Positions 22,461 to 32,486 of a stretch of 43,500 nt of DNA are shown here, in pieces (the first letter of the stretch is position 1; each line of letters starts with the position of its first letter). Source of the stretch: Gammaproteobacteria bacterium SG8_30. Its GTDB lineage: Bacteria; Pseudomonadota; Gammaproteobacteria; Steroidobacterales; Steroidobacteraceae. The position numbers and the translations under genes are program-made. The stretch lies in contig LJNS01000006.1 in NCBI GenBank assembly GCA_001303245.1, positions 1 through 43,500 of the forward strand, written 5' to 3'. Under the pieces are notes generated by a model that saw nothing but the letters and a program-made list of their open reading frames with translations, did no database searches and was not told the DNA's origin.

Positions 22461-22579
22461 GGCTCATCGAGACCGGCCGAGGGACGAGGCCCTTTGACGC
22501 CGGGGCAACCGCCGGGCCCAACCAACCCGGAAAGGTGCCAACTCCTGCGGAGGGCTGCGAGCCCGCCGGCAGATGAGCC
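22461..22579 (+). ncRNA. SAM riboswitch of the S-box (SAM-I/IV) clan
   Basis: The P1 stem GGCTCATC (22461-22468) pairs perfectly with GATGAGCC (22572-22579). Between them are the S-box core blocks in order: GAGGGACGAGGCCC (P2 and pseudoknot arm), GCCGGGGCAACC, the P3 hairpin GGGCCCAACCAACCC, and GGTGCCAACTCCTGCGG, ending at AGATGAG. This is the standard SAM aptamer arrangement, sitting directly after the promoter and upstream of metX. SAM binding should lower metX-metB expression. Whether it is SAM-I proper or an SAM-I/IV variant needs a covariance model. Confidence 0.88.
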
Positions 22580-22682: not shown

Positions 22683-23750
22683 ATGATCCCAAGTTGCGAC
22701 GCCCGGTGCGCCCCGGCCGAGCCCCTCGTGACCCGTCGACCCGCAGCCGAGACAAGCGGTGCGCAAGAGGCGTCCGAGGGCATCTTGCGGCTGCCCGGGG
22801 AATTTCGGCTGCACCACGGCGGCTCACTGCGTGACGTGGAGGTCGCGTGGCGTCTCGAGGGCGCCCGCGGTGCCCCGGTGGTCGTGGCCCTCGGGGGGAT
22901 TTCCGCGCATCGTCGGGTCTTCTGCGTCGAGGATCGGCGAGCCGGATGGTGGTCCGAGCTGGCCGGACCGGGTCTCCCCCTGGACGCCGGCTCCTACCGC
23001 CTGCTCGGCTACGACTTTCTCGGAGGCAGCGGGCAGAGCACGGCTCCCGTGCGGGGAGCAGCTGCGTTCCCGCCCGTCAGCTCCTTCGACCAGGCGGACC
23101 TCTTGAGGGTACTCTGCGACGGACTCGGTATCGGCCGGCTGCACGCGATAGCCGGCGCGTCGTACGGCGGGATGGTTGCCCTGGCCTTCGGCCAGCGTTA
23201 CCCGGATCGGGTCAAACGCCTCCTCGTGATCAGCGCGTCGCACACCGCGAACCCACTGGCGACGGCCTGGCGGAGCGTCGAGCGGGAGTGCGTCCGCTTC
23301 GGGCTGGCACGGGGCGACGGGCCGGGCGGGCTGCGCCTCGCACGGGCGCTTGCGATGGCAACCTACCGTACGCGGGCCGAGTTCGACCAGCGGTTCTCGC
23401 GCGAGGCGCGCCGTGTCGACGATCGCATGCTCTTTCCCGTGGAGGAATACCTGTTCGCGCGCGGGGACGCCTACGCAGGCCGTTATGCGCCGGAGTCGTT
23501 CCTGTGTCTCTCGGAATCGATCGACTTGCATCGCGTGGACCCGGAACGGGTCGCGGTGCCCGCGACACTGGTCGGCATCACCGGGGACCAGTTGGTCACG
23601 ATCGAGGAGATGCGGGAACTCGAATGCCGGCTCGCCGGTCCCGCGAGGCTCTACGAGCTGGACTCCCTGTTCGGACACGACGCGTTCCTGAAGGAGCGGG
23701 AGCGGCTGGCGCCGATCTTCCGCGAGGGACTCGAGGGAGGTGCCTCGTGA
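22683..23750 (+). CDS. metX: Homoserine O-acyltransferase (MetX; probably O-succinyltransferase)
   Basis: 355-residue alpha/beta-hydrolase that acylates homoserine in methionine biosynthesis. The nucleophile is S160 in GASYGGMVALAF, with D302 (ITGDQLV) and H332 (LFGHDAFL) completing the triad. The ATG at 22683 has AGGAGAG six bases upstream. MetX enzymes of Xanthomonas-type gammaproteobacteria are reported to use succinyl-CoA; the partner downstream is a cystathionine gamma-synthase, which prefers O-succinylhomoserine, so succinyl transfer is favoured but not provable by eye. Regulation is by the SAM riboswitch. Confidence 0.9.
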   Translation: MIPSCDARCAPAEPLVTRRPAAETSGAQEASEGILRLPGEFRLHHGGSLRDVEVAWRLEGARGAPVVVALGGISAHRRVFCVEDRRAGWWSELAGPGLPLDAGSYRLLGYDFLGGSGQSTAPVRGAAAFPPVSSFDQADLLRVLCDGLGIGRLHAIAGASYGGMVALAFGQRYPDRVKRLLVISASHTANPLATAWRSVERECVRFGLARGDGPGGLRLARALAMATYRTRAEFDQRFSREARRVDDRMLFPVEEYLFARGDAYAGRYAPESFLCLSESIDLHRVDPERVAVPATLVGITGDQLVTIEEMRELECRLAGPARLYELDSLFGHDAFLKERERLAPIFREGLEGGAS

Positions 23751-24910
23751 CTGACCACCCGGATCCCAGAACCGTCGCAGTCAGGGCCGGCCTCGACTCG
23801 GACGCCGAGCACGGTGCCGTCGTGCCGCCCATCTACCTGTCCTCGACATATACGTTCGAGGGGCTGAACCGCCGACGACGCTACGACTACTCGCGCTCCG
23901 GCAACCCTACCCGTGATGCGCTCGGAGAAGCGCTGGCCGCGCTGGAGCACGGCGCAGGCGCGGTCGTCACGGCGACCGGCATGGCTGCGGTCAACTTGGG
24001 GGTCGTGCTGGCACGCCCCGGGGAACGGATCGTGGCGCCGTACGACTGTTACGGAGGCACCTACCGGCTGCTGGCGGCCCTGGACCGGACCGGGCGCGTC
24101 CACGTCGATTTCATAGACCTGACCGACCCCGCGGCGCTTGCGGGAGCTCTCGATCACAAGCCCCGGATCGTGTGGATCGAGACGCCGAGCAACCCGCTGC
24201 TGCGCATCACGGACATCGACACTGTCGCCAGGGCGGCGCACGAGGTCGCGGCGCTGGTAGTCGTCGACAACACGTTCCTGAGCCCCGGATGGCAGAACCC
24301 GATCGACCTGGGGGCGGATCTCGTGGTGCACTCGACGACGAAGTACATCAACGGTCACAGCGATGTCGTCGGCGGTGCAGTAGTCTCCCGCGACGAGGGC
24401 CTGTACGAGGAACTGGCCTGGTGGGCCAACTGCCTCGGCATCACCGGCGGCGCCTTCGACGCCTTCCTCACCCTGAGAGGCCTGCGCACGCTTCACGCGC
24501 GCCTGCGGTTGCACGAGGAGAACGCAGCCGCCGTGGCCCGGCTCGTGTCCACGCACCCGGCGGTCAGCCGCTCGTACTACCCGGGTCTGCCCGGGCATCC
24601 CGGCCACGCGCTGGCGGCCCGCCAGCAGAGCGGTTTCGGGGCCATGGTGAGCTTCGAGCTGGCAGGCGGAGTTCGCGCGGTCGCCCGTTTCCTCGACGGG
24701 CTGCAGCACTTCTCTCTCGCGGAATCTCTCGGGGGAGTCGAGAGCCTCATCGCTCATCCCGACACCATGACCCACGCAGCCATGGACCCGGCGGCAAGGG
24801 CCGAGGCGGGCATTACCCCCGGACTGCTGCGCCTGTCGGTGGGAATCGAAGCCACCGAGGATTTGCTCCGCGACCTCCAGGCCGCGCTCGACCGGGCTGT
24901 GGCGGGCTGA
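23747..24910 (+). CDS. metB: Cystathionine gamma-synthase
   Basis: 387-residue PLP enzyme of the Cys/Met metabolism family that joins O-acylhomoserine and cysteine to cystathionine. Motifs are YDYSRSGNPTRDALGEALAALEHGAGAVVTATGMAA, PYDCYGGTYRLL, IWIETPSNPLL-like IVWIETPSNP, and the PLP lysine K199 in HSTTKYINGHSDVVGG. The GTG start overlaps the metX stop (GTGA) behind GAGGGAGG. Family members are hard to separate; the metX neighbour and the GITGGAFDAFLTLRGLRTL segment favour gamma-synthase over O-acylhomoserine sulfhydrylase or beta-lyase. It converges on leuB. Confidence 0.9.
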   Translation: MTDHPDPRTVAVRAGLDSDAEHGAVVPPIYLSSTYTFEGLNRRRRYDYSRSGNPTRDALGEALAALEHGAGAVVTATGMAAVNLGVVLARPGERIVAPYDCYGGTYRLLAALDRTGRVHVDFIDLTDPAALAGALDHKPRIVWIETPSNPLLRITDIDTVARAAHEVAALVVVDNTFLSPGWQNPIDLGADLVVHSTTKYINGHSDVVGGAVVSRDEGLYEELAWWANCLGITGGAFDAFLTLRGLRTLHARLRLHEENAAAVARLVSTHPAVSRSYYPGLPGHPGHALAARQQSGFGAMVSFELAGGVRAVARFLDGLQHFSLAESLGGVESLIAHPDTMTHAAMDPAARAEAGITPGLLRLSVGIEATEDLLRDLQAALDRAVAG

Positions 24911-24955
24911 TCGCCACGGGCGAGGCGGCTAGGTCCGCGGCGGGTCACGCGTCCG

Positions 24956-26017
24956 TCATGCGATCCGATCGACGACTGCCGTGCCGGCTTCCCGGCAGGT
25001 CGCGGGCGCGGCGCCCTGCCGCGCCAGGTCCGAGGTGAGCACGCCGGCCGCGAGGGCACCGGACACCGCACGCTCTACGGAAAGTGCCTCGGTCTCGAGA
25101 CCGAGCGAATGACGCAGCAGCATCGCTGCGCTCAGGATCGCTCCATACGGGTTTGCGATGCCCCTGCCGGCGATGTCGGGCGCGGAGCCGTGGATGGGCT
25201 CGTAGAGGCCGCCTCTGCCGCTGCCGATCGATGCCGAAGGACAAAGTCCGAGGGAGCCCGGCAGCATCGCCACCTCGTCGGTCAGGATGTCCCCGAACAT
25301 GTTCTCGGTCACGACAACGTCGAATTCGGCCGGCCGGCGCAGCACGTGCATGGTCGCGGCGTCGATGTACATGTGCTCGACGGCGACGCCCGGGAACTCC
25401 TGCGGAACGACACGGTTCACGATGCTTCGCCAAAGTCTCGATGTTTCGAGGACGTTCGCCTTGTCGACCGAGGTCAGGCGGCCGCGCCGGCCTCGGGCAA
25501 GCCCTGCCGCGAGCCGCACGACGCGCTCGATCTCGGCCGCGGAGTAGCTGCAGAGGTCTGACGCAGAGTCCTCGGTACGGGTCTTGTCGCCGAAATAGAT
25601 GCCGCCCGTCAGTTCGCGCACGACCAGGATGTCTACGCCGCCCAGGAGGTCAGGCCGCAGCGGGGATGCGTGGTACGCGGCGGGATGGGTCACCGCCGGG
25701 CGCAGGTTCGCGAACAGCCCGAGCTCGCGCCTCAGGCCCAGGATGCTCTGCTCCGGCCGCACCTTCAGGGAGGGGTCGGAGTAGCGCGGATCGCCGATCG
25801 CGCCGAACAGCACCGCATCCGCACGCCTGGCCAGGTCCAGCGTCGCCGGGGGAAGCGGATCCCCGGCTCGGTCCATCGCGGCCGCCCCGACCGGGGCCTG
25901 CTCGAGCACGAAATCGTGTCCGAAAATCGCCGCCACGCGCTCCAGGCAGCGCACGGCCTCGGTCGTCACCTCGGGACCGATGCCATCGCCCGGCAGGACC
26001 GCGACGAACGCTCTCAT
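24956..26017 (-). CDS. leuB: 3-isopropylmalate dehydrogenase
   Basis: 353-residue NAD-dependent oxidative decarboxylase of leucine biosynthesis. It begins [26 protein letters not shown]; other blocks are [86 protein letters not shown] and [18 protein letters not shown]. The ATG overlaps the leuD stop (ATGA). It is the last gene of the ilvC-leuACDB operon. Confidence 0.98.
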
Positions 26018-26592
26018 TTGGCGTGCGTGCGCTCGTAGTGCTCGATGTCCTCCTTGCGGGACAGCAGGAACCCGAGCTCGTCGACCCCGTTCATCAGGCA
26101 ATAGCGCGCGAAGGGTTCCAGCGGGAAGCTCACCTCGCGACCATCCGCAAGGGCGACGGTGCACGTCTCCAGGTCTATGGCGATCTCGGTGCCCGGGTGA
26201 GCCAGCAGCCAGGCGTGGGTCTCCTCGTCCACAGTGACCGGCAGGAGCCCGTTCTTCAGGGAATTGTTGCGGAAGATGTCGGCGATCTCGGTGCTGATGA
26301 CTGCGCGGAACCCGTAATCGATGAGCGCCCAGGGCGCGTGCTCCCGAGACGAGCCGCAGCCGACGTTGCGCCCTGCAACCAGCGCCTGGCAGCCTGCAGC
26401 CTCGGGCCGGTTGAGGATGAAATCGGGCCGTGGGTTGCCCGCGGCATCGTAACGCCAGTCCGCGAAGAGCGCCTTGCCCAGGCCCTCACGCGTGGTGGTG
26501 GTCAGGAACCTCGCGGGGATGATCTGGTCGGTGTCGATGTTGGTCGACGGCATCACGACCGTGCGCGACCGGAGTTGTGTGATAGGTTCCAT
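26014..26592 (-). CDS. leuD: 3-isopropylmalate dehydratase, small subunit
   Basis: 192-residue swivel-domain partner of LeuC. Segments [42 protein letters not shown] and [14 protein letters not shown] are diagnostic. It begins 18 bp after leuC and overlaps leuB. Confidence 0.98.
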
Positions 26593-26610
26593 GCGCTCCT
26601 CCCGCCGGCC

Positions 26611-28011
26611 TCAGCCGAGGAATTCCCGTGGATCGGTGACCCGGCCGGTCACCGCCGCCGCCGCAGCCGTCAGCGGGCTGGCCAGCAGCGTGCGCGCTCC
26701 GGTGCCCTGGCGGCCCTCGAAATTGCGGTTGCTGGTGCTGACCGCGTACTTGCCGGCCCCGACGGTGTCGCCGTTCATGCCCAGGCACATCGAGCACCCG
26801 GACTCGCGCCACTCCGCACCGGCCTCTACGAAGATGCGGTCGAGCCCCTCGGCTTCGGCCTCCTTCTTCACCTGCTGCGAGCCGGGCACGACGAGCATGC
26901 GGACTCTGCGCGCCACCTTGCGACCATCCATCACCCGCGCCGCGGCGCGCAGGTCAGAAATCCGGGCGTTCGTGCAGCTGCCGACGAACACGACGTCGAT
27001 GGCCTTGCCGGCGACGTGCTCGCCGGGCTCGAAACCCATGTAGCGGAGTGCCTTGCGGAAGACCTCGTCGCCGGACGAAGGGATCGCGCCGGAGAGGGGC
27101 AGTACCATGCCGGGGTTCGTGCCGTAGGTAATCATCGGCTCGACGTGGCCGGCATCCAGGACCACCTCCCGGTCGAAGCGTGCGCCGGGATCCGACGGCA
27201 GCTGCCGCCAGGTGTCGACCGCGCGTTCCCACAGCTCGCCCGCGGGGGCCCTTGGCCGACCCTCCAGGTAGGCGAAGGTGGTCTCGTCCGGCGCCACCAT
27301 GCCGGCCCGGGCACCCGCCTCGATCGACATGTTGCAGACGGTCATCCGTTCTTCCATGGACATGGCGCGGATTGCCTCGCCGCGGTACTCGAGCACGTGC
27401 CCGGTGCCTCCGGACACCCCGATGCGCCCGATGATGGCCAGGATCAGGTCCTTCGCGGTGACCCCCGGACCGAGCCGGCCCTGGACCTCGACCGAGAACG
27501 TCTTCGGCTTGCGCTGCAGGAGACACTGCGTCGCCAGCACGTGGCCCACCTCGGTCGTGCCGATCCCGAAGGCAAGCGCCCCGAAGGCGCCGTGGGTGCT
27601 GGTGTGGCTGTCGCCGCAGACGACGGTCTTGCCGGGCTGCGTCGCCCCGAGCTCGGGCCCTATGATGTGGACGATGCCGCGCTGCGGGCTCTGCAGTCCG
27701 ATCAGCTCGACCCCGAACTCCGACGTATTCCTCTCCAGCTGCTCAACCTGCTTGCGCGCCGACTCCAGCCTGATGGGCACGCCGCCGAAGATCTGGTCGT
27801 GATCGGTCGGTGTGGAGTGGTCCATCGTTGCGAGCGTCCTGTCCAGCCTCCGGACGGGGAGCCCCCGCTCGCGCAGCACGGAGAAGGCCTGCGGGGAGGT
27901 GACCTCGTGCGTGAGGTGCAGGTCGATGTACAGGATCGCCGGCGTGTCGGACGTCTCCGGCACGACCTCGTGTGCGCTCCACACCTTCTCGAACATCGTC
28001 AATGCGGCCAT
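26611..28011 (-). CDS. leuC: 3-isopropylmalate dehydratase, large subunit
   Basis: 466 residues, the same length as E. coli LeuC. The 4Fe-4S cluster ligands are visible in [14 protein letters not shown] and the CxxC of [44 protein letters not shown] is the family signature. The ATG at 28011 is chosen because GGAG lies five bases upstream and the product begins like other LeuC proteins; the frame is open further upstream. Confidence 0.98.
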
Positions 28012-28036
28012 GTTTTCTCCAGTCGGGCGTCCGCGG

Positions 28037-29620
<1,584 letters not shown>

Positions 29621-29700
29621 CGCACAGTACCTCGGTCAGCGCCGGCCTCGCCGGCTCGGTGTCCCTGGACGCGGGCTCGCGGAGCCCGGTCCGCTTGGCC

Positions 29701-30693
29701 TCAGCCGGTGCCTTCCTGGAGCCACGGCATGCGGGCGCGGAGCTTCCTGCCGACCTTCTCGATCGGGTGAGCCAGGTCCTTCTCCAGAAGTTGCCGATAC
29801 TTCTTCCGGCCGCGGCGGTTCTCGCTGATCCACTGCCGGGCGAACTTGCCCGACTGGATCTCCTCCAGGATCTTCTTCATCTCCCGCTTGGTGTGCCGGT
29901 CCACGACTCGCGGCCCGCGGGTAAGATCGCCGTACTTGGCCGTCTCGGAGATGAACTGGTGCATCTTCGCGATGCCGCCCTCGTGGAGCAGGTCGACGAT
30001 GAGTTTCAACTCGTGCAGGCACTCGTAGTAGGCGACCTCGGGCTGGTAACCCGCCTCGGTGAGGGTCTCGAACCCCTTCAGGACGAGTTCGGTGGCTCCC
30101 CCGCACAGCACGGCCTGCTCGCCGAAAAGGTCGGTCTCGGTCTCCTCGCCAAAGGTCGTCTCGAGCACGCCGCCCCGCGTTCCGCCGATTCCGTCCGCGT
30201 AGGCCAGCGCCTTGGCGTGCGCCTTGCCGCTCGCATCCTGGGCCACGGCGATGAGGCAGGGAACGCCCCGTCCCTGCTGGTACTGGCGCCGGACGAGATC
30301 GCCCGGTCCCTTCGGGGCGATGAGCACCACGTCGAGGTCCTTGCGCGGCTTGATCTGGCCGAAGTGGACGTTGAAGCCGTGGGCGAACAGGAGCGTCGCG
30401 CCTACCTTGAGCGACGGCAGGACTTCCTTGTACAGCCCCGCTTGCGCGAGGTCCGGCGCCAGCATCGCGACGAGGTCTGCGCCCGCAGCGGCCTTCGCGG
30501 GCTCCGACACGGCCAGTCCGTCGCGCTTGGCTTTCCGCCAGCTAGGACCCTTGCGGACACCGACCACCACGTCGTAGCCGCTGTCCTTGAGGTTCAGCGC
30601 GTGGGCGCGGCCCTGGCTGCCGTAGCCCAGGACACAGATCCGTGCCCCCTTCAGCGCCTTTCGGTCGACGTCCTTCCTCGAGTAGATCCGCAT
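29701..30693 (-). CDS. ilvC: Ketol-acid reductoisomerase (class I)
   Basis: 330-residue enzyme of valine/isoleucine/leucine synthesis that isomerises and reduces acetohydroxyacids. The Rossmann motif [19 protein letters not shown] is near residues 22-40 (Arg where most have His), followed by [13 protein letters not shown] (NADPH phosphate contact), [22 protein letters not shown] and the C-terminal metal site with [22 protein letters not shown] and [21 protein letters not shown] precedes the ATG. Unlike many operons there is no ilvG, ilvM or ilvA between ilvC and leuA. Expression is expected to be controlled by the leucine attenuator just upstream. Confidence 0.97.
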
Positions 30694-30761
30694 CGGTGTT
30701 CCCCTGTGTCAGTCCGGTGGCCTGTCTCTTGCCGGGCGCGCCCGCTGGCCGCCCTCCCATA

Positions 30762-30801
30762 AACGAAAAACCCCGCCTCGGAGCCGGTCCGGTGCGGGGT
30801 T
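30762..30801 (-). terminator. Attenuator terminator upstream of ilvC
   Basis: On the minus strand AACCCCGC (30801-30794) pairs with GCGGGGTT (30776-30769), followed by TTTTTCGTTT. It lies about 70 bp before the ilvC ATG and after the Leu-rich leader peptide, so it is an attenuator and not an operon end. Its 5' arm overlaps CCCGCACC, which can alternatively pair with a leader segment. Confidence 0.85.
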
Positions 30802-30829
30802 CCCTTGTTGATCCGTTTCTATTCCGGTC

Positions 30830-30961
30830 TCAGCCCAGGCACCCGCACCTCTGCCTCAGGAGCAGGAGGTTCAGGTCAAGAAGGCCGGCGAGCACCGCGC
30901 AGCCACCCGCACCGCGTGTGTCCGTGAACCGGGCCTGGTCGCATTGATTCGCGTGCATCAT
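30830..30961 (-). CDS. leuL: Leucine-rich leader peptide of the ilvC-leu attenuator
   Basis: 43-codon reading frame starting with two ATGs (30961 and 30958). Near its end it reads LLDLNLLLL: seven leucine codons in nine (30883-30857), then RQRCGCLG and the stop. It lies about 20 nt after a strong promoter and 30 nt before the terminator arm. This is the classical leader-peptide arrangement for leucine-responsive transcription attenuation. A longer upstream reading frame in the same phase exists but crosses the promoter and the aminopeptidase gene and is not considered real. The ribosome site is weak. Confidence 0.82.
   Translation of the reverse strand: MMHANQCDQARFTDTRGAGGCAVLAGLLDLNLLLLRQRCGCLG
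30842..30849 (-). promoter_or_regulatory. Antiterminator segment of the ilvC-leu leader
   Basis: GGTGCGGG on the minus strand, within the last codons of the leader peptide, is perfectly complementary to CCCGCACC (30798-30791), the 5' side of the terminator. It begins eight bases after the last codon of the leucine run, so a ribosome stalled on Leu codons leaves it free, whereas one at the stop codon (30830) covers it. An identical GGTGCGGG is at 30913-30906. Confidence 0.7.
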
Positions 30962-30987
30962 CGCTTGGTGCGGTGCAAGATGCACGG

Positions 30988-31017
30988 ATATCAGCACAGC
31001 GTGCGCGTGGCTGTCAA
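30988..31017 (-). promoter_or_regulatory. Promoter of the ilvC-leuACDB operon
   Basis: On the minus strand a perfect -35 TTGACA (31017-31012), an 18-bp spacer and TGATAT (30993-30988). The predicted start, near 30981, is about 20 nt upstream of the leader peptide. It lies in the divergent gap with the M17 aminopeptidase. Confidence 0.8.
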
Positions 31018-31070
31018 CCAGCGGCCGGGTCCGCGACGACGCAAGGTCGGCTGCCCGCGGGGGGAAATCG

Positions 31071-32486
31071 ATGAACGAAGGATTCACGCTCGGGCGCGAA
31101 AGCGGTTCGCGGCCCGTCTGGCTCCTCACGGCAGGCCAGGTCGAGCACTGGCGGGACACGCTCGAGCCCGCTACCGCGAACTGGGCGAGGGTTTCGGGCT
31201 TCGGGGGTGAGAAGCACCGGCTGCTGCTTCTGCCCGGTGCGGACGGAAGCGTCCGCGGGGCGGCATTCGGTCTCGGCGACGTCGACTTCCCGCAAGGCAT
31301 TGCGCCGCTCTCGGTTGCACCGCTGGCCGACAAGCTTCCGCAAGGTCACTGGCATGTCGAAGCGTCGCTCGAGCCGGAGGTCGCGACCCGCGTGCTGCTC
31401 GGATGGATGCTCGGTCGCTACCGCTTCGACCGCTATCGGACCCGCGGGGGCAACTCGCTGCGCTCGGTGAGCCTAGCCGCGCCTCCGGGCGCCGACGTCG
31501 ACTTCGTGCGTCGCGCCGCCGCGGCGGACGCGCTGGCGCGTGACCTGATCAATACACCTGCGGCAGACATGGGTCCCGCAGAGCTCGGATCTGCAGCCGC
31601 ACAGCTCGCGACGCGCCACGGCGCCGAGTTCAGCCAGCTCGTCGGGGACGCGCTGCTCGAGCAGCGTCTCGTGGCCATTCACACCGTCGGGCGCGCCGGG
31701 CCACAGGAGCCGCGCCTGCTGGATCTTCGCTGGGGTGACCCGGACCGGCCGCGGCTTGCGCTCGTGGGGAAGGGCGTCTGTTTCGACACGGGCGGGCTGG
31801 ACATAAAGCCGTCGCAGAGCATGGCCCTCATGAAGAAAGACATGGGTGGCGCTGCCTGTACCCTCGGACTCGCCCACATGATCATGGACGCGGGCCTGCC
31901 CGTTAACCTCCGGGTGCTGGTGCCGGCGGTCGAGAACAGCGTGGACCGGCGAGCCTTCCGGCCCGGCGACGTGATCCACACCCGCAAGGGGCTGACCGTG
32001 GAGGTGGGCAACACGGATGCAGAGGGCCGCCTCATCCTCGCCGACGCGCTCGCCCTGGCCGACGAAGAGGGCCCCGACCTCGTTCTCGACATGGCCACCC
32101 TGACCGGAGCGGCGCGCACCGCCCTCGGACCGGAAGTGCCGGCCATGTACAGCAACGACGAGAAACTGGCTGTCGCGCTGGCCGCCGCATCGCGGCGGGA
32201 GTGCGACCCGCTCTGGCGCATGCCCCTCTGGCAGCCCTACGACGAGGACATCAACGGCAAGGTCGCCGACCTCAACAACATCTCGGGGCACGGTTTCGCG
32301 GGCTCGGTCATCGCGGCATTGTTCCTGCAGCGCTTCCTGTCCGCAGGTCGGTCCTGGGCCCACATCGATCTGTATGCCTGGAACGGGCGGGACAGGCCCG
32401 GGCGCCCCGTCGGCGCCGAAGCACAGTGTATCCGCGCCTGCTACCGGGCGATCGAGCAGCGTCTGGAGACGTCACCCCGCATATGA
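31071..32486 (+). CDS. Leucyl aminopeptidase family protein (M17)
   Basis: 471-residue M17 metallo-aminopeptidase. The two-metal active site is encoded in LVGKGVCFDTGGLDIKPSQSMALMKKDMGG and the signature NTDAEGRLILADALA; AMYSNDE, GKVADLNNISG and AHIDLYAW follow in the conserved catalytic half. The N-terminal domain is divergent, as in the PepA-like paralogs of xanthomonads. GGGGGAAA precedes the ATG. It is divergent from the leucine-controlled ilvC-leu operon and coupled by a four-base overlap (ATGA) to the EamA gene. Role: release of N-terminal residues from peptides in the cytoplasm. Confidence 0.93.
   Translation: MNEGFTLGRESGSRPVWLLTAGQVEHWRDTLEPATANWARVSGFGGEKHRLLLLPGADGSVRGAAFGLGDVDFPQGIAPLSVAPLADKLPQGHWHVEASLEPEVATRVLLGWMLGRYRFDRYRTRGGNSLRSVSLAAPPGADVDFVRRAAAADALARDLINTPAADMGPAELGSAAAQLATRHGAEFSQLVGDALLEQRLVAIHTVGRAGPQEPRLLDLRWGDPDRPRLALVGKGVCFDTGGLDIKPSQSMALMKKDMGGAACTLGLAHMIMDAGLPVNLRVLVPAVENSVDRRAFRPGDVIHTRKGLTVEVGNTDAEGRLILADALALADEEGPDLVLDMATLTGAARTALGPEVPAMYSNDEKLAVALAAASRRECDPLWRMPLWQPYDEDINGKVADLNNISGHGFAGSVIAALFLQRFLSAGRSWAHIDLYAWNGRDRPGRPVGAEAQCIRACYRAIEQRLETSPRI

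Follow-up and report, generated by a model that had tools for sequence, protein, structure and literature searches.

A predicted leucine attenuator over an ilvC-leuACDB operon in Steroidobacteraceae and sensor codons that follow leuA among its relatives

In S. aureus, a leucine-rich attenuator precedes the ilvDBNCleuABCDilvA operon and subjects ilv and leu genes to leader-peptide attenuation, and in B. subtilis a leucine T-box governs the ilv and leu genes of the ilv-leu operon (PMC5794164). The Salmonella leu leader contains rare Leu codons (PMC1183508), the Shewanella leuA attenuator has an anti-antiterminator stem (PMC2659441), and in Actinobacteria leaders with a Leu run, the LEU element, lie before leuA (PMC1262725). 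Sensing systems have also been described to switch at syntenic genes (PMC2965389). What we say here of these papers holds for their accessible excerpts.

Here, we present an analysis of a 43,500-nucleotide stretch of DNA (the window) from Gammaproteobacteria bacterium SG8_30, in which a predicted attenuator sits on the minus strand between the ATG of ilvC at 30693 and a divergent aminopeptidase gene that begins at 31071. Judging from the sequence, we are confident that a ribosome-mediated leucine attenuator sets the transcription of ilvC-leuA-leuC-leuD-leuB from one promoter. The sequence lends good support to the predicted leucine attenuation of ilvC-leuACDB, and ribosome stalling is very likely the mechanism at the window leader. 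The mechanism, which the leu and trp attenuators share, and the leucine attenuation of ilv genes are known; the newer part is the comparative pattern in which the sensor codons follow leuA.

The locus shares with the S. aureus attenuator the leucine attenuation of ilv and leu genes together; as far as the excerpts go, S. aureus differs in that CodY is also involved, in the three Ile of its leader and in having more ilv genes in the operon. Similarly, leucine governs ilv and leu genes within one operon in B. subtilis; however, the T-box is a tRNA-sensing riboswitch without a leader peptide, unlike the window leader, and no match to a T-box covariance model was found in the window. Because leucine-responsive ilv-leu operons are described in these two organisms, leucine control of ilvC is less remarkable than had been held in a preliminary description of this DNA. 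According to the same excerpts, the leu attenuators of Salmonella, E. coli and Shewanella have in common with the window a Leu-rich leader, an antiterminator and a terminator, and the protector (anti-antiterminator) stem is common to Shewanella and the window. The window differs from all three in that ilvC comes first, in the order leuA-leuC-leuD-leuB and in lacking a Shine-Dalgarno sequence before the leader, and the favored uncommon Leu codon is CTT in its group and CUA in the Salmonella leader.

Rfam presumably represents the enterobacterial leucine leader as RF00512; a scan of the whole window at the gathering score returned only a SAM riboswitch, and at E values up to 10 the region 30600-31100 gave only three unrelated weak matches. 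The former is a SAM-I riboswitch on the plus strand (22461-22579; 73.3 bits), followed by metX (22719-23747) and a cystathionine gamma-synthase gene (23744-24907). In Xanthomonas campestris, a SAM-I riboswitch in the met operon reportedly also senses uncharged initiator tRNA (PMC7270179). Among the matches listed in the open-licence attenuation literature, Steroidobacter was not mentioned, and Steroidobacteraceae together with leader peptides led only to the lasso peptide topic in open-licence papers. Judged by titles and the beginnings of abstracts, none of the matches listed in that literature treated a change of sensor with leuA.

For comparison, 150 genomes of the family, evenly drawn from a larger group, were searched. 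ilvC was found in 136, and 129 gave usable upstream regions after six partial matches and one without a gene start were left out. A leader rule delimited an attenuator set of 87 genomes, 77 with Leu and 10 with Ile/Val leaders. In the window, the putative promoter comprises a −35 element TTGACA (31017-31012, minus strand) and, after N18, a −10 element TGATAT (30993-30988, minus strand) in the extended form TG-C-TGATAT. Of the 87 relatives, 82 likewise have TTGACA at the site chosen, and 79 have an extended −10-like TGnT..AT. TGATAT matches TATAAT at only three of six positions, and a consensus promoter scan of the window did not call this promoter. The leader peptide ORF has 43 sense codons followed by TGA and extends from ATG 30961 to TGA 30830 on the minus strand. 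Its sensor, codons 27-35 (30883-30857, minus strand), reads LLDLNLLLL (CTT CTT GAC CTG AAC CTC CTG CTC CTG), with Leu at seven of nine codons and neither Ile nor Val. The preliminary description was thus right about the promoter and about the leader, both in its length of 43 codons and in its Leu content. The true start may be a second ATG at 30958; in the alignment, the congeners G073, G084 and G042 have only this second ATG, and G025, from another genus, only the first. A longer ORF (30830-31333) was rejected as the full-length leader, since it extends into the divergent aminopeptidase gene.

Three hairpins of the leader transcript, namely, protector, antiterminator and terminator, are predicted to compete; the segments that build them all lie on the minus strand. 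Segment 1 (30876-30861), within the Leu run, pairs with 30855-30841; segment 2 (GGTGCGGG, 30849-30842), located in codons 38-40, is the 5' arm of the antiterminator; and segment 3 (CCCGCACC, 30798-30791) is its 3' arm and overlaps the 5' arm of the terminator. The intrinsic terminator (30802-30766, minus strand) consists of a 9-bp stem (30802-30794/30776-30768) with an inner hairpin and a T-run (30770-30766). The predicted folding energies are −19.8 kcal/mol for the protector hairpin 1:2 (30886-30838), −27.7 kcal/mol for the antiterminator 2:3 and −23.6 kcal/mol for the terminator 3:4 (30803-30768), and the antiterminator and terminator are predicted to be mutually exclusive via the shared segment 3. 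Compared with shuffles, the whole window leader folds only slightly better (z −1.73). A second exact copy of GGTGCGGG (30913-30906, minus strand), overlooked previously, precedes the Leu run within the leader ORF and could compete for segment 3; it is missing from the aligned congeners, and we rejected it as a conserved part of the switch.

We folded the window leader with all RNA masked by the ribosome as far as 12 nt beyond the A-site codon's first base, 12 nt being an assumed footprint. Before segment 4 is made, A sites at codons 28-34 gave an antiterminator pairing of 0.93; the value dropped to 0.64 at codon 35, where the Leu run ends, to 0.24 at codon 36 and to 0.00 from codon 37 on; the upstream edge is blurred, codons 19-26 still giving 0.83-0.92. 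In the full-length leader at equilibrium, only stalls at codons 33-34 favor the antiterminator (0.84-0.85), codons 29 and 32 come close to a tie, and the terminator reaches 0.77-0.97 for stalls at codons 27, 28, 30, 31 and 35. Stalls at these last five codons would therefore need the antiterminator to form first. Without a ribosome, folding of the full leader gives 0.99 for the terminator, with segment 2 on the Leu run at 0.85; before segment 4 is made, it is mixed, with 0.57 protector and 0.30 antiterminator. Of the structural claims made earlier, the pairing of 30849-30842 with 30798-30791 holds with perfect complementarity, the GC-rich terminator with a T-run is present, and footprint folding lends support to the proposed geometry, in which a stall on Leu would free segment 2 and a ribosome at the stop codon would cover it.

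Based on these models, a ribosome with its A site on the Leu codons would leave segment 2 free to capture segment 3 before segment 4 exists; with segment 3 taken, the terminator would be blocked and the RNA polymerase would continue into the operon. A ribosome one or two codons past the Leu run, or at the stop codon, would cover segment 2, and the terminator would form. On a full leader free of ribosomes, segment 2 would fold onto the Leu run and the terminator would win as well. The stall is presumably caused by scarce leucyl-tRNA, in which case leucine shortage would raise all five enzymes, the ilvC product included.

Among the family relatives, a hairpin of the pattern ACCCCGC...GCGGGGT precedes ilvC in 117 of 129. 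Leader and segment were evaluated jointly in 116 of them (the contig of G012 ends too near): at least six Leu, Ile or Val codons in nine together with an antiterminator duplex of −16 kcal/mol or better were found in 67 of the 116, versus 0 of 1160 dinucleotide shuffles. Across the 87 relatives of the attenuator set, pairing between the terminator arm and the RNA upstream of it averaged 0.87, 0.84, 0.42 and 0.25 at codons −1, 0, +2 and +3 relative to the last sensor codon, which puts the mean switch where the window has it; when the sequence downstream of the sensor was shuffled, it was flat at 0.50-0.59 throughout. In 59 of the 87, upstream pairing was gone at most two codons from the last sensor codon; in the other 28, it stayed above 0.5 at three codons or further beyond the sensor.

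In 80 of the 87 relatives, segment 2 occurs with no more than one mismatch (53 exact); 72 of these read it in one codon phase, and five and three in the two others, which argues that it is conserved as RNA and not as peptide. This bears on the reading that the leader ORF encodes a functional small hydrophobic protein and that the hairpins are incidental. While the Leu-rich stretch is kept in 77 of 93 leuA-linked relatives, as such a protein would have it, the leader peptides share little beyond the Leu run and the segment 2 codons, the three phases are at odds with a conserved peptide, and the spacing from sensor to structure is conserved. We therefore regard a functional peptide as extremely improbable and favor ribosome-mediated attenuation.

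An in-frame leader start was found in 85 of the 87 relatives (73 ATG and 12 GTG; none for G072 and G139), at a median of 21 nt from the predicted transcription start. A Shine-Dalgarno-like sequence precedes it in only two of the 85, and because the window leader has none, we infer its translation. Codon usage is also distinctive. CTT makes up 149 of 564 Leu codons in the leaders compared with 429 of 10081 in ilvC, leuA, leuC and leuB stretches of the same 77 genomes (6-fold), whereas the T-ending codons of Ala, Gly, Pro, Thr and Val are raised merely 1.1-2.5-fold. Other uncommon codons (CTA, GTA, ACA and GGG) are raised 3.5- to 5.6-fold, so that part of the bias may reflect composition or structure. 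If the leader were hardly translated for want of a Shine-Dalgarno sequence, the terminator would be a constant brake rather than a sensor, and the favored terminator in ribosome-free folding would fit this. However, in-frame starts in nearly all relatives, the rare-codon enrichment and the spacing between codons and structure would be pointless without translation, making a constant brake very unlikely in comparison with a translated, leucine-sensing leader.

The core of the antiterminator arm is identical in 72 of the 87 relatives. When arms were swapped, native pairing was better than pairing with swapped arms in 77 of the 87; in ten (G025, G026, G065, G097, G108, G125, G131, G137, G148 and G149), it was weaker than with the arms of other genera. 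G051 and the four members of genus g16 pair better with their own odd arms. Because one core is found in 72 of the 87, the swap test mostly mirrors common versus rare arms, and we rejected its result as covariation; covariation of the alternative helices across the 87 relatives is only weakly suggested by these alignments.

Behind the attenuator, on the minus strand, follow ilvC (ketol-acid reductoisomerase, 29701-30693, TIGR00465), leuA (2-isopropylmalate synthase, 28037-29620, TIGR00973), leuC (isopropylmalate dehydratase large subunit, 26611-28011, TIGR00170), leuD (isopropylmalate dehydratase small subunit, 26014-26592, TIGR00171) and leuB (3-isopropylmalate dehydrogenase, 24956-26017, TIGR00169), each identified with an NCBIfam profile over the family cut-off. 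The intergenic distances in this order are 80, 25 and 18 nt, and leuD and leuB overlap by 4 nt. A pattern scan found neither a terminator nor a promoter in the 80-nt gap between ilvC and leuA, and one weak terminator pattern inside leuB (25261-25248). No promoter pattern was found in 24700-30800, a negative result that is weak because the same scan also misses the leader's own promoter. The source genome, with an assembly that is 74.6% complete, has a single ilvC, and an acetolactate synthase over the family cut-off is encoded on another contig. As a single-copy gene that is first behind the attenuator, with no internal promoter pattern, ilvC is expected to be under the same predicted control, and the earlier proposal that ilvC, too, responds to leucine is upheld as a prediction. 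It can be argued that the attenuator works but that a second promoter between the terminator and the ATG, or an overriding protein control, acts on ilvC, and that leucine sets its expression only in part. ilvC is also required for valine and isoleucine, which would make a bypass of leucine control sensible, and the stretch from the T-run to the ATG was covered by the pattern scan only. On the other side, besides the scan itself, a second promoter would serve the leu genes too, since these lie behind ilvC. We consider this scenario unlikely and prefer transcription of the five genes from the attenuated promoter.

Operon content differs among the genomes of the family. In a tally of 128 genomes, leuA is linked to ilvC in 93 and absent from the ilvC operon in 31, with four unclassed. 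With leuA linked, 77 genomes have a Leu leader, none an Ile/Val leader, five a weak one and 11 none; with leuA absent, none has a Leu leader, 10 have an Ile/Val leader, one a weak one and 20 none. Two of the 11 leuA-linked genomes scored as having none (G099 and G144) have visible Leu leaders that the terminator pattern missed. Genomes with leuA and no clear Leu leader are the four g17 members, G017, three of the five leuA-linked g22 members, G003, G060, G095, G023, G089 and G090; together with G099 and G144, they account for the 16 leuA-linked genomes outside the Leu rule. Within genus g15, the sensors of three leuA-linked members read LLPLVLLLL or LLPLALLLL, the sensor of the member without leuA reads VPTIVPLVP, and in G090, which has leuA, the rule finds no leader. 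The best IlvC tree, a quick tree of this one family with 47 of 122 inner branches open, requires at least nine changes of leuA linkage, 11 of the Leu sensor and four of the Ile/Val sensor. Five pairs fall on starred branches; on average, 3.3 of these show the Leu sensor together with leuA and 1.7 show no difference, and the reverse never occurs. With these five pairs, the test of sensor against leuA linkage did not reach significance (p 0.125-0.5).

Two other arrangements upstream of ilvC were seen in the family. In loci of the genera g7 and g3 (L112, L117, L105, L120, L153 and others), where leuA is absent and leuCDB directly follows ilvC, a conserved promoter-like element and an inverted repeat, GCATCATA-N8-TGTGGTGC, replace the attenuator; the pattern occurs in six genomes, and from its sequence the repeat looks like an operator. 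In the g22 members G082 and G103, whose operons lack leuA, a TTGACA element and a terminator hairpin precede ilvC with no recognizable leader peptide, possibly as attenuator remnants.

leuA was sought elsewhere in 32 genomes, namely, the 31 without a linked leuA and G123. Four have a close leuA away from ilvC (E up to 1e-60). In all three readable cases (L231-L233), the separate leuA is immediately preceded by a Leu leader and a terminator; the fourth locus ends at the contig edge. In 27 of the other 28 genomes, there is a match to a divergent, TIGR00970-type leuA, 24 of them over the cut-off. At these loci (L240-L264), a Leu-rich ORF ends 110-190 nt upstream of the divergent leuA in 23 of 27, as a raw count, and 20 of the 23 ORFs end in Arg-Arg-stop; a terminator of the attenuator pattern was not found between ORF and leuA at any of the 27. 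Perhaps these ORFs are another kind of leucine leader. The Actinobacterial LEU element, for which the excerpted account proposes a pseudoknot with the Leu run pairing with the leuA Shine-Dalgarno sequence, unlike in the window, is perhaps nearer to these leaders than to the window leader.

Outside the family, we analyzed 40 loci hand-picked from 94 genomes of the order, mostly with a nearer IlvC. leuA is in view in 26, of which 23, all but G209, G240 and G203, carry a Leu/Ile/Val leader. None of the 12 loci with enough sequence and no window-type leuA has a leader with a terminator; in G214 and G152, which lack such a leuA, there are stray ORFs without a terminator, and two of the 40 loci were not classed. 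Among 70 named loci outside the family, a leader and terminator precede ilvC in four (L029, L031, L035 and L036), which belong to Lysobacter, Thermomonas and other MAGs. The main proteobacterial survey, by Vitreschak et al. in 2004, reportedly includes an ilvC-led operon with an attenuator in Xanthomonas.

The leader of the ilvGMEDA attenuator contains Ile, Val and Leu codons. Five genomes of the families f9 and f14 resemble this type: acetolactate synthase directly follows ilvC, then ilvA-leuA-ilvE, and the sensors are mixed Leu/Ile/Val (e.g., VVVLLGLIILILVI), with a similar terminator in three of the five. In contrast, the window operon lacks ilvA, ilvE and acetolactate synthase, and its sensor is leucine only. 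Across 110 leaders, the mean Leu share of the sensor is 0.85 for operons with leuA-leuCDB only (n = 46), 0.74 with ilvE added (n = 27) and 0.57 with ilvA added (n = 9), and 0.19, 0.17 and 0.35 in the small groups without leuA (n = 6, 1 and 3); 18 leaders with unclassed operons were left out of the trend. Thus, the Leu share falls as ilv genes join the operon (Spearman −0.68, p 0.00025, on 24 genus or family means, by which kinship is only partly removed). In G022, whose operon includes ilvA, the share is still 0.90, and among leuA-leuCDB operons it goes down to 0.43. The mixed sensors in relatives with ilvA in the operon could be taken to mean that the window switch senses all three branched-chain amino acids instead of leucine alone; given that the window's nine sensor codons include seven Leu and zero Ile or Val, we find this highly improbable and retain leucine as the amino acid sensed.

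The relatives suggest that the leucine sensor is tied to leuA, which encodes the first enzyme committed to leucine, and that ilvC would be drawn under leucine control by sharing an operon with leuA. We lean toward the view that, in this order, the attenuator is a modular element that takes on a new specificity whenever the gene list of the operon changes, such that the Leu share reads out operon content. According to this model, the Leu sensor belongs to leuA and goes with leuA when it lies elsewhere, the divergent replacement leuA has its own Leu-rich leader, and an ilvC attenuator left without leuA is dropped or recoded to Val/Ile. The fixed distance from the last sensor codon to the structure may aid the annotation of such leaders. 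The locus provides a testable leucine attenuator in a little-studied group, together with a natural series of operons for setting sensor codons against gene content and for studying how the amino acid that an attenuator senses can change. It is the pattern of a sensor that follows leuA that deserves the attention of specialists.
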